Below, piece by piece: positions 14,170 through 16,441 of a stretch of DNA of 34,803 bases. Below the pieces are notes generated by a model that saw only the letters and a program-made list of their open reading frames with translations, was not told the DNA's origin and did not search any database. A program made the translations under genes and the position numbers. This DNA is from Bacillota bacterium (lineage in GTDB: Bacteria > Bacillota > Bacilli > Alicyclobacillales > SLC66). Numbering within the stretch: position 1 is the stretch's first letter; the number at the start of each line of letters is the position of its first letter. Location of the stretch: the NCBI GenBank assembly GCA_021846285.1, contig JAJZCB010000036.1:1-34803 (forward strand), written 5' to 3'.

Positions 14170-14814
14170 CTATGCGAGACGGTCTTCGAGATACTTTTCA
14201 AGTTTCCTTTTGACGCGCTGAAGAGCGTTGTCGATCGACTTGACATGCCGACTCAGGTCGCCCGCGATCTCCTGATACGATCTCCCATCCAAGTATAGCA
14301 TCAGTACGTTGCGTTCAAGTTCACTAAGAAGCTCAGCCATCTTGTACTCGATGTCCGAAAACTCCTCGCGATTGATGATCAACTCTTCCGGATCGGTAAC
14401 CTTGGCGCCGCCGATAACGTCCATCAACGTACGATCCGAGTCCTCGTCGTATATGGGCTTGTCCAACGATATATAAGAATTGAGGGGCACATGCTTCTGT
14501 CTCGTGGCCGTCTTGATGGCCGTAATAATCTGACGAGTAATGCACAACTCTGCAAACGCTTTAAACGAGGCAAGCTTGTCGTCCCGAAAATCGCGGATGG
14601 CCTTAAATAGACCAATCATGCCCTCCTGCACGATGTCCTCGCGGTCAGCGCCGATCAAAAAGTAGGAACGAGCCTTTCCACGGACGAACGTTTTGTATTT
14701 TTGGATAAGGAACTCAAGCGCAAGAGCATCCCCAACCCGCACACACTCCACTAGCAGTTCGTCCGGGATGTCGTCAAGATTTCGACCAGGATCGACCGAA
14801 AGTTCAACTGCCAC
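14170..14814 (-). CDS. sigH: RNA polymerase sigma-H factor
   Basis: SigH (Spo0H) directs transition-state and early sporulation transcription, and competence in some species. The product of about 214 residues has sigma region 2 (DREDIVQEGMIGLFKAIRDF, then FAELCITRQIITAIKTATRQ) and region 4 with a C-terminal helix-turn-helix (YQEIAGDLSRHVKSIDNAL). The GTG at 14814 is chosen because GGGGGG lies six bases upstream and length then matches B. subtilis SigH (218); the ATG at 14820 abuts the G-run. It has its own promoter and terminator. Its presence suggests an endospore-forming ancestry. Confidence 0.96.
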   Translation of the reverse strand: MAVELSVDPGRNLDDIPDELLVECVRVGDALALEFLIQKYKTFVRGKARSYFLIGADREDIVQEGMIGLFKAIRDFRDDKLASFKAFAELCITRQIITAIKTATRQKHVPLNSYISLDKPIYDEDSDRTLMDVIGGAKVTDPEELIINREEFSDIEYKMAELLSELERNVLMLYLDGRSYQEIAGDLSRHVKSIDNALQRVKRKLEKYLEDRLA

Positions 14815-14853
14815 CGTCATCCCCCCGGCAGAATCTATCAATATAGTAACGCA

Positions 14854-14883
14854 AGTATACATGATGGATTCCCGAAGGGTCAA
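14854..14883 (-). promoter_or_regulatory. Promoter upstream of sigH
   Basis: TTGACC (14878-14883) is followed after 18 bases by TATACT (14854-14859) on the minus strand, some 40 bases upstream of the sigH start. This fits a sigma-A promoter. Confidence 0.75.
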
Positions 14884-14983
14884 TGAAAAACACGAAACAG
14901 CTATTTTTTGATTCCCTGCTTCAGTCGCCATGCAGGCCGGACTCGGTACGCGTTCATGCGCTCTGTCCGTCGGTTACACGGGC

Positions 14984-15049
14984 GCCGCACGTCTGCCGAA
15001 GGAAAGCCGCACCTTGACCGAACGAAAGCCGCACGTCTGCCGAACGGAC
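14984..15049. repeat. Three tandem 22-base units
   Basis: Units at 14984-15005, 15006-15027 and 15028-15049 each begin GCCGCAC and carry a central CCGAA; units 1 and 3 share their first 17 bases and unit 2 is diverged. The array lies in the non-coding gap upstream of sigH. No gene is evident across it. The rest of the 490-base gap between sigH and rlmB (14815-15304) holds only the sigH promoter and the nested inverted repeat. Confidence 0.8.
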
Positions 15050-15115
15050 CGACTGTTGTTCCCGCTCTCAAACACGGCTGCGCCGAACTCGCTCGGGCAC
15101 AACAGTCGATCCGTT

Positions 15116-15241
15116 CTAGGGAACCTGTGAAATTCGATCGGTCCGTCGCCAAATTGTCCACATATAGCGTTTGATTAAAGCCTCAAACGCTATATGTGCC
15201 AAGTTTTCATACCGCTCCGGACTTTTTCACAGGTTCCCTAG
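15116..15241. repeat. Nested inverted-repeat element (MITE-like)
   Basis: The outer arms CTAGGGAACCTGTGAAA (15116-15132) and its exact inverse (15225-15241) are 17 bases, and the inner arms CACATATAGCGTTTGA (15159-15174) and its inverse (15183-15198) are 16 bases around an eight-base loop. Both pairs are perfect. A short GTCCG/CGGAC pairing lies between. CTAG at both edges could be a target duplication or simply the arm ends. No protein is encoded. No T-run follows, so it is not a plain terminator of rlmB. Confidence 0.8.
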
Positions 15242-15304
15242 GCAACTGAGTGCCCTCCGGGTGCAGTCTCTGTATCGCGACTCGCAGCGTGGCTCGCTTG
15301 GCTG

Positions 15305-16441
15305 TTATACTCTGCCTGCCAGGCTGCGTTGGCGAACTGCTTCGTACAACAGAATACCTGCCGCCACACCAGCGTTCAGAGAGTTGATCTGCCCATTCAT
15401 CGGCAAACTGACAAGCGCGTCGCACCTTTCTTTGGTTAGACGGTTCATGCCGGCGCCCTCACCGCCGATTACGAGCACTGTCGGCGCTGTGTAGTCCACA
15501 GTCCAATAAGGCTGCTGCGCATCGGGCGCCGTTCCAATCACCCAAAACCCCGCATCCTTCAGTTTTTGCAGGGTTTGGCTGACATTGACCACGCGAGCGA
15601 CTTCCACGTGCTCCAGAGCACCCGCAGACGCTTTGGCCACCGTTCCGGTAAGCGGAACTGCCCGTCGCTTGGGAATGATCACACCGTGCCCTCCAGCGCC
15701 GTCGACAGATCTCAACACGGATCCGAGATTGTGCGGATCTTCAAGCCCATCCAACAGGACCAGCAGTCCCGGTTTGCGAGCACGCGCCAGTTGAATGAGA
15801 TCGTCAATTTCGACATATGGTTTGGCCGACGTATACGCGATGATTCCCTGGTGACCGCGCTCCGGTGATATCTCATCCAGCTTGGCCTTTGGAACTTGTT
15901 GAATAACCACGCCCGCTTCTCTTGCCACGGCAACGATTTCATTGAGACTGCCGCCCGCAGAACTCTCCTGCAGCAAAATTTTGTTTAGCGTGCGCCCCCC
16001 CTTAAGAGCCTCCAGCACCGCGCGCCGCCCTGCGACAAACTCCTGTTCGCGGTCGCTCCGTTCCTGTTCGGTTACACCTTGCGCGACCCAGCGAACAGGT
16101 CGTCCGGCTGTTCGTCCCGAGTTCGCTGATTGGCGATTTCGTCGACCATTTGGCGTGACCTCCGTACGTCGTCGGTCACGACGCTTGCCAGACTCTGGCG
16201 ACGAGTTGGACGAACGACGCCTGCCAGACTCCGGCGACGAGTCGGAGGAACGACGCTTGCCAAACTCCGGCGACGATTCGAAGGAACGACGCCTGCCAGA
16301 CTCCGGCGACGAGTCGGACGAACGACGCGGACGTCGATCAGTCTCGACGTTTCCTCCTCGCTGTACGGACCGTCTTTGACCAGCCCCACTGCTACGCGCC
16401 GTCGTTCCCTGCTTTCCCATCCTGCTTCTTGTGTTTATCAT
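15305..16441 (-). CDS. rlmB: 23S rRNA 2'-O-ribose methyltransferase (RlmB/TrmH family) with Arg/Ser-rich extension
   Basis: SPOUT methyltransferases of this family methylate ribose of 23S rRNA (Gm2251 in E. coli). The last 245 residues are canonical: an L30e-like substrate-binding domain (EFVAGRRAVLEALKGG), motif 1 DPHNLGSVLRS, motif 2 VIGGEGAGMNRL and motif 3 NAGVAAGILLYEA, which form the knotted SAM site. Unusually, about 130 residues of basic low-complexity sequence precede it, making 378 residues against about 250 in B. subtilis. This part includes four 12-residue repeats (residues 39-86). The ATG at 16441 follows GAGGAG and starts just after the mrnC stop. A shorter start inside the extension cannot be excluded. 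Confidence 0.93.
   Translation of the reverse strand: MINTRSRMGKQGTTARSSGAGQRRSVQRGGNVETDRRPRRSSDSSPESGRRRSFESSPEFGKRRSSDSSPESGRRRSSNSSPESGKRRDRRRTEVTPNGRRNRQSANSGRTAGRPVRWVAQGVTEQERSDREQEFVAGRRAVLEALKGGRTLNKILLQESSAGGSLNEIVAVAREAGVVIQQVPKAKLDEISPERGHQGIIAYTSAKPYVEIDDLIQLARARKPGLLVLLDGLEDPHNLGSVLRSVDGAGGHGVIIPKRRAVPLTGTVAKASAGALEHVEVARVVNVSQTLQKLKDAGFWVIGTAPDAQQPYWTVDYTAPTVLVIGGEGAGMNRLTKERCDALVSLPMNGQINSLNAGVAAGILLYEAVRQRSLAGRV
16184..16327 (-). repeat. Four 36-base tandem repeats inside rlmB
   Basis: Four 36-base units encode 12-residue blocks of the form RRSSDSSPESGR, RRSFESSPEFGK, and two more variants. They cover RlmB residues 39-86. The reading frame is kept and substitutions are mostly conservative. 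Not a CRISPR: there are no spacers. Confidence 0.9.

Follow-up and report, generated by a model that had tools for sequence, protein, structure and literature searches.

The window analysed here, a stretch of 34,803 nucleotides (contig JAJZCB010000036.1 of assembly GCA_021846285.1, the genome that we call G000), carries rlmB and sigH with only non-coding DNA between them. The usual gene order places yacP in this slot, and the sequence-only reading had described a fold-back element sitting in its place. While it is correct that the two genes are separated by nothing but non-coding DNA, the element did not replace yacP, since the rlmB-sigH stretch of the sister genome G001 aligns throughout except for the element, which is missing there, leaving a gap that is shorter still. 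The element is a repeat of 126 bp (15116-15241, no strand assigned) that has four other copies in its own genome, an empty site in G001 and a match to a covariance model. Its surroundings are themselves repetitive. A second, unrelated palindromic repeat (15042-15116), with 23-nt arms that are 91% complementary, abuts it; the 15037-15112 stretch of this neighbour has dozens of matches in G001, where it is present at the window locus as well. Dozens of matches, in this case in both G000 and G001, were likewise seen for the left flank of one G001 copy of the element (L062). Close to where sigH begins, three direct repeats of the GCCGCACGTCTGCCGAA type lie at 22-bp spacing (14984-15044), and the number of units appears to be different in G001. 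On the other side, the rlmB-like ORF (15305-16441) encodes a predicted protein with a repetitive, Arg/Ser-rich N-terminus made of RRSSDSSPESGRRR units.

The element consists of two nested inverted repeats, with outer arms of 17 nt (15116-15132 and 15225-15241) and inner arms of 16 nt (15159-15174 and 15183-15198), which both match at 100% and share the exact centre 15178.5. The sequence-only reading was thus accurate on the perfect nested arms and their nearly shared centre, on the CTAG present at each edge, and on the improbability of such arms arising at random. Indeed, perfect 16-nt arms spaced by up to 100 start at three positions in the window, the yield expected from these two repeats themselves, and at none in each of 10 mononucleotide shuffles. 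The folding z-score of the 126 bp is -10.95 on the plus strand and -10.39 on the minus strand, and none of 200 shuffles was as good on either strand. An Rfam scan of 14800-15500 returned nothing at E values up to 1, and hence no known structured RNA family. There is no T-run either, and the earlier argument drawn from this against a simple terminator still holds.

From left to right, the element begins with an edge tetranucleotide CTAG (15116-15119, no strand), which we place on the target side on the basis of edge counts, of the rarity of CTAG in the background and of three events at non-CTAG targets. It is followed by the left terminal inverted repeat GGAACCTGTGAAA (15120-15132, plus strand), which forms the 17-nt arm when CTAG is included; the only exact occurrences of this 13-mer in G000 are those in the five copies and in a solo end. 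The left side of a middle stem, GGTCCG (15140-15145, plus strand), corresponds to helix 2 of our alignment A2, with 97.9% of cells paired and zero double changes. The perfect left arm of the inner stem, CACATATAGCGTTTGA (15159-15174, plus strand), corresponds to helix 3 of the same alignment, in which 6 pairs are altered on both sides. The hairpin loop TTAAAGCC (15175-15182, plus strand) has the family consensus YTRAAGCC and is strongly conserved across 44 copies of type B and 17 of type A, the two subfamilies described below. The right half comprises the perfect 16-nt right arm of the inner stem (15183-15198, plus strand), the right side of the middle stem, CGGACT (15218-15223, plus strand), which lies within a CGGACTTT block common to both subfamilies, and the right terminal inverted repeat (15225-15237, minus strand), that is, the 17-nt arm minus CTAG. 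The right edge CTAG (15238-15241, no strand) is probably borne by the element, as suggested by the edge asymmetry of closely knit copies. In the absence of target duplication, 15116-15119 would represent the target tetranucleotide and the element proper would be limited to 15120-15241.

The genome of origin (164 contigs) contains five full copies that are 97-99% identical. The four others (C17, C80, C83 and C114) agree with the window copy at 125, 122, 123 and 122 of 126 positions, respectively, and have unrelated flanks. A pattern search with the ends gave 11 exact matches, accounted for by the five paired copies and by one solo right end, found where a pilB-like gene has its stop codon. When the second subfamily was used to build a covariance model, this model retrieved the window copy together with at least 8 diverged full copies, so that G000 holds at least 13 in total. 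DNA searches gave matches in four of 61 genomes, own genome included: G000, G001 and G002, which belong to one genus, and G010, of the same family. When 398 genomes of the class were searched with the covariance model, four had matches (G000, G001, G078 and G042). The single copy in G078, from another family of the class, has type A ends (E 5e-9), and neither a second copy nor a partner was found in the 400 kb examined. The matches in G042, from another genus of the order, were set aside as probably belonging to another family, for their ends are quite different and their E values were about 1e-4 in the 398-genome search. There, palindromic repeats of about 124 bp (L328, L331, L334 and L337) have ends TGAGCGTTTTGCAGAATT and an inner stem of a similar ATATAGTGT type, and probably form a separate family. 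No match to the element was found in viral contigs, plasmids or phages.

Copies were gathered in a list of 104, keyed on 24-base flanks and requiring paired ends (of 108 candidates, 4 were removed because their pairing was attributed to chance). Among the carriers, G002 showed the largest number of copies. An earlier list of 92 (96 candidates, 4 dropped) had merged the C17 copy with that of the window, and L042 with L040; the fold and covariation, mismatch, orientation, open-frame and tetranucleotide-background tests are based on this earlier list. By a crude reading-frame test, long open frames enclose 9 of the 92 copies. A neighbouring ORF apparently owes its last codons (LGNL) and its stop to the end of the C17 copy (L033:2957-3082).

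Comparison of orthologous sites (sets of 9 and 12 plus others; L059, L092, L136 and L124 were aligned from the set of 12) identified 11 sites that are empty in a sister genome, with the flanks joined. The window site reads CGTT-CTTG-GTAACTG in G001 and CGTT-CTAG[element]CTAG-GCAACTG in the window. Also empty in G001 are the sites of the G000 copies C80, C114, C17 and C79; conversely, G000 is empty at the sites of the G001 copies L039, L042, L153, L062 and L102 and of the G002 copy L100. Each empty site contains one tetranucleotide, either CTAG or one mismatch away from it, where the filled site has two. The left flanks align poorly at two of the 11 sites (L153 and L042), and the empty L100 site might be a deletion scar because it holds TCCTCTAG, the last 8 bases of the element. 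Elsewhere, remnants of the element persist in G001 at the C83 site and at that of the C41 copy (L092), the element is absent with a junction blurred in the alignment at L052, L156, L136 and L124, and L111/L122 is filled in both species. A single CTAG at the L039 site, unoccupied in G000, has been used twice, by a type A element in G001 and by an element of type B2 in G002. In G002, one copy interrupts the tnpB gene of an IS605 element and a group of copies borders another palindromic repeat, which represents a third repeat family. This family, with end TCCGAAAAGGGTCGAG (L118:5960-6240; also L182, L196, L273 and L275), occurs in G000, G001 and G002, and three of its copies in G002 have the element inserted at their edge.

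Taken at the level of genome sequences, the copies at unrelated places and the precise empty sites in sister species show that the 126-bp repeat is a non-coding mobile element. The search of the host genome and its relatives thus yielded what had been put forward as support for a MITE, namely many copies with matching ends together with empty sites. This part of the MITE-like proposal holds; in contrast, target duplication is doubtful, and neither G000 nor the relatives, the latter searched in part, yielded an autonomous element sharing these ends.

The family comprises two main types. Type A, to which the window copy belongs, has GGAACCTGTGAAA ends, and type B has GGGACATGTGATAAACC ends and a GCAGGCG/CGCCTGC middle stem; the inner hairpin with its YTRAAGCC loop and a GGACTTT block are common to both. 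Where an end shows a variant sequence, such as GGGAGCAGTGA or GGGAACTGTGA, the opposite end usually carries its match. We also found an A/B hybrid (L054), deletion forms of roughly 40-60 bp that have lost the hairpin, abutting elements with one common CTAG (L105), and copies with tandem loops of two to four 25-bp units (L040, L042, L044, L051, L143 and L202). Where the hairpin loop is multiplied together with its stem in such units in L202, L219 and L051, CTAG is found at the joints; in G010 the joints are CTGG/CCGG variants.

Within each type, the fold is conserved. In type B (44 copies, 43 distinct), 96.5% of cells are paired and 46 cells show a double change, versus 8.7 in shuffled alignments; in type A (18 copies), the corresponding values are 96.0% and 39 versus 14.5. 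For either type, 0 of 500 shuffles reached these counts, kinship among copies being ignored, and stem partners that were slid along the alignment gave 1-11 double-change cells. The number of further pair types was less striking (reached by 81 and 12 of 500 shuffles). These alignments show stems preserved through double changes across the copies. The level at which pairing matters is less clear-cut. Mismatches of the two types together comprise 31 G.T and 25 A.C; the excess of wobble pairs is missing in type B (15 versus 17) and there is some in type A (16 versus 8), which weakly favours pairing at the DNA level. Symmetric ends also follow from one protein binding both of them, so that covariation of the outer stem is no proof of a folded intermediate; that of the inner stem is harder to ascribe to such binding. 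Template-switch repair of palindromes is another source of double changes.

A strong hairpin, covarying stems, a conserved loop and the G.T excess of type A could also be expected of an RNA or regulatory DNA kept by the host, and the sequence-only reading had listed a small RNA, a sigH leader and an rlmB trailer among its options, to which a two-way terminator can be added. We consider this very improbable. The window locus is empty in the sister species, other copies lie beside unrelated genes, inside the tnpB gene or in other open frames, type B has no wobble excess, and there is neither an Rfam match nor a T-run. Because the repeat is mobile, with copies elsewhere and empty sites, it is not a leader or RNA belonging to sigH or rlmB, and these options found no support.

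The edges of the copies give access to the target. Among the 256 tetranucleotides, CTAG is the rarest in 80 kb sampled from G000 (30 seen versus 119 expected from dinucleotides; frequency 0.00037), and yet it is the edge consensus of the 104 copies: the left edge is CTAG in 48 of them and one mismatch away in 35 more. These counts, made on assembled sequences, show a strong preference for target sites that are CTAG or differ from it by one mismatch.

Whether the target is duplicated upon insertion is less certain. A classical MITE, whose terminal inverted repeats would be read by a DDE transposase acting in trans with duplication of a short CTAG-like (or TA) target, would account for inverted ends, absence of coding capacity, high copy number and the occurrence of CTAG twice, as flanks of the element, at many filled sites and once at the empty one. 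In three events, the left edge equals the target but the right edge is CTAG, which makes duplication doubtful: the empty site and left edge are CGAG at C80 and CCAG at L062, and for L108/L118/L138, a group that we treat as a single event, CGAG is read both at the left edge and in the host repeat where it is uninterrupted (from which the empty state of L118 was read). The same trend is seen in the two closest-knit lineages (n = 38), where 14 copies deviate at the left edge only, none at the right only and 3 at both; this subset was chosen after the pattern had been seen, and the 14 become 12 events when L108/L118/L138 is counted once. Over all 104 copies (35 with CTAG at both edges, 31 deviant at both), the asymmetry is weak, with 25 left-only and 13 right-only deviants (p 0.07). 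Conversely, L102 points to duplication, its target and its right edge both being CGAG, and 5 of the 31 copies deviant at both edges have equal non-CTAG edges (permutation p 0.011 on the 104-copy list; 3 of 28, p 0.11, on the earlier 92-copy list). Such equal edges might also mean that recognition demands matching of the two tetranucleotides. Finally, the window copy, L042 and L153 have CTAG at both edges and sister sites CTTG, CTTG and CTAT, which could be explained by later divergence. Altogether, it is likely, if not settled, that the element inserts 3′ of a CTAG-like site, that the target is usually not duplicated, and that the right CTAG is the element's own. Given these three events, the 14 versus 0 asymmetry and the fact that an autonomous element with these ends was not seen in the stretches searched, we regard the classical MITE as possible and rather unlikely.

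Another route would be recombination of the CTAG junction of an excised circle with CTAG-like sites, by a tyrosine, serine or IS110-type recombinase. The target does resemble the element's own end, one CTAG was used twice independently, the abutting elements of L105 have a single CTAG in common, and segregation of heteroduplex cores could produce the mixed outcomes seen at the edges. Exchange through a heteroduplex predicts right-only deviants too, though, and the close-knit set has 0 of them against 14; this route accordingly strikes us as unlikely.

The enzyme that moves the element was sought in several ways, in relatives covered in part and in assemblies made of many contigs. In G000, no gene bounded by element ends was seen at up to one mismatch to the type A end, and one-mismatch end matches were as numerous as control matches (7 versus 7). 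No autonomous partner with type B ends appeared among the matches listed in four genomes. In 40 stretches of G001, G002 and G010, mostly round unpaired ends, no convincing pair lay at IS distance; the end pairs were 38-194 bp apart and accompanied by solo ends. L221 has an end pair at 2.2 kb, one end of which has 3 mismatches. Genes for Y1 (HUH) transposases are present in all 4 carriers tested and also in 9 of 14 relatives with no DNA match to the element, and their presence was thus rejected as a pointer to the mover because it does not discriminate. Among 40 Y1 loci (7 places being represented twice) searched with the model, the element occurred in one, inside its tnpB, and no Y1 gene was flanked by it. 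The ends of the best represented IS605 group, which finishes in GATCAA, are unlike those of the element, and the compared IS605 ends were discarded as their source. For IS608, lagging-strand targeting has been described (PMC6006769). Close-knit copies are opposed to the local coding direction in 27 of 36 cases (p 0.004, crude ORF test), a weak bias and the reverse of what would be predicted for an element that targets the lagging-strand template with this strand active, so a simple IS608 model is not favoured.

On balance, the explanation that we hold to be somewhat probable is that of a small palindromic non-coding mobile repeat, probably devoid of target duplication, which would be moved in trans by a recombinase, most likely of the HUH type, and whose copy between rlmB and sigH would be an inserted bystander. 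Its unit would be a palindrome of about 122 bp plus the flanking CTAG; the element would enter 3′ of a CTAG-like tetranucleotide and contribute the right-hand CTAG itself, and a recombinase acting in trans would recognise the ends, the folded strand or both. An HUH enzyme (Y1-type, IS200/IS605- or RAYT-like) best fits the geometry and the hairpin and is our first guess, a tentative one that we would not call probable; a DDE transposase is one alternative, and a site-specific recombinase that forms circles is another. We can further speculate, with considerable doubt, that these repeats form a distinct class that moves as a folded single strand, picks the rarest tetranucleotide of its host, provides its own right CTAG without any duplication and is served by a recombinase reading shape as much as sequence, the TTAAAGCC loop, multiplying in 25-bp units, being the recognition head. 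Reading of shape is suggested by the presence, within one genome, of several different end sequences that have the same dyad symmetry and covary.

The nearest description that we found is that of the SMR-A/B repeats of Haloquadratum walsbyi, which are reported to be about 110 bp long with prominent inverted terminal repeats and up to 54 copies, to produce no target duplication, and to have ends unlike those of resident transposons, their mobilisation being called "enigmatic" (PMC3119063). According to the same source, SMR-A prefer the palindromes of PATEs and IS605 elements, and one copy of the present family also sits in an IS605 element (tnpB). Size, inverted ends, copy number and the existence of a target preference are similar as far as that account goes, as is the lack of a matching transposon among the resident transposons sampled, and lack of target duplication is a likely, not settled, likeness. 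SMRs are archaeal, whereas the present family is bacterial with a CTAG site, and the two are set side by side by description and not by sequence.

Other systems share fewer traits in the descriptions consulted. REPINs, or REP doublets, are linked to RAYTs, form a long single-strand hairpin and show compensatory changes (PMC3116915, PMC3733652), and REPs have GTAG or CGTC tags and short stems (PMC3733652). The present family resembles them in its inverted conserved ends, its end tetranucleotide, ends able to supply stop codons and compensatory changes; it differs in having CTAG on both sides, an outer stem of 14-17 bp and no element-flanked Y1 gene in the loci examined. TIRYTs are described as Y1 genes flanked by long inverted repeats with a common GGGGWSAS motif (PMC3733652), and type B ends, GGGGACAT, fit 7 of its 8 positions, which we take as a lead only. 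With the bacterial MITEs listed in PMC3733652 (RUP, NEMIS, bcr1, ERIC and others), the family has in common a size within 70-300 bp, inverted ends, absence of coding capacity and a strong fold; it differs from them by its doubtful target duplication and because no autonomous partner was found in the stretches searched. IS200/IS605 elements are described as devoid of terminal inverted repeats (PMC7290912), and PATEs and ends-only IS200/IS605 derivatives as hairpin DNA inserting 3′ of a tetranucleotide without target duplication (PMC7290912, PMC3119063). The hairpin and, likely, this mode of insertion are found here as well, but PATEs, as described, have no inverted ends and are akin to IS605 ends, whereas the present family is inverted and differs from the IS605 ends compared.

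In the open-licence literature, to which our search was confined (subscription papers lay outside it), we found no paper on this family, and our best reading is that it is a new variant of small mobile repeat. At the locus itself, it would be wrong to regard the rlmB-sigH hairpin as a regulatory leader. If the right CTAG is indeed borne by the element, this would separate these repeats from ordinary MITEs. The family supplies data with which SMR-like mobilisation can be tested: sites filled in one close sister species and empty in another, a clear target rule, and variants that include a hybrid, deletion forms and symmetric changes at the ends.
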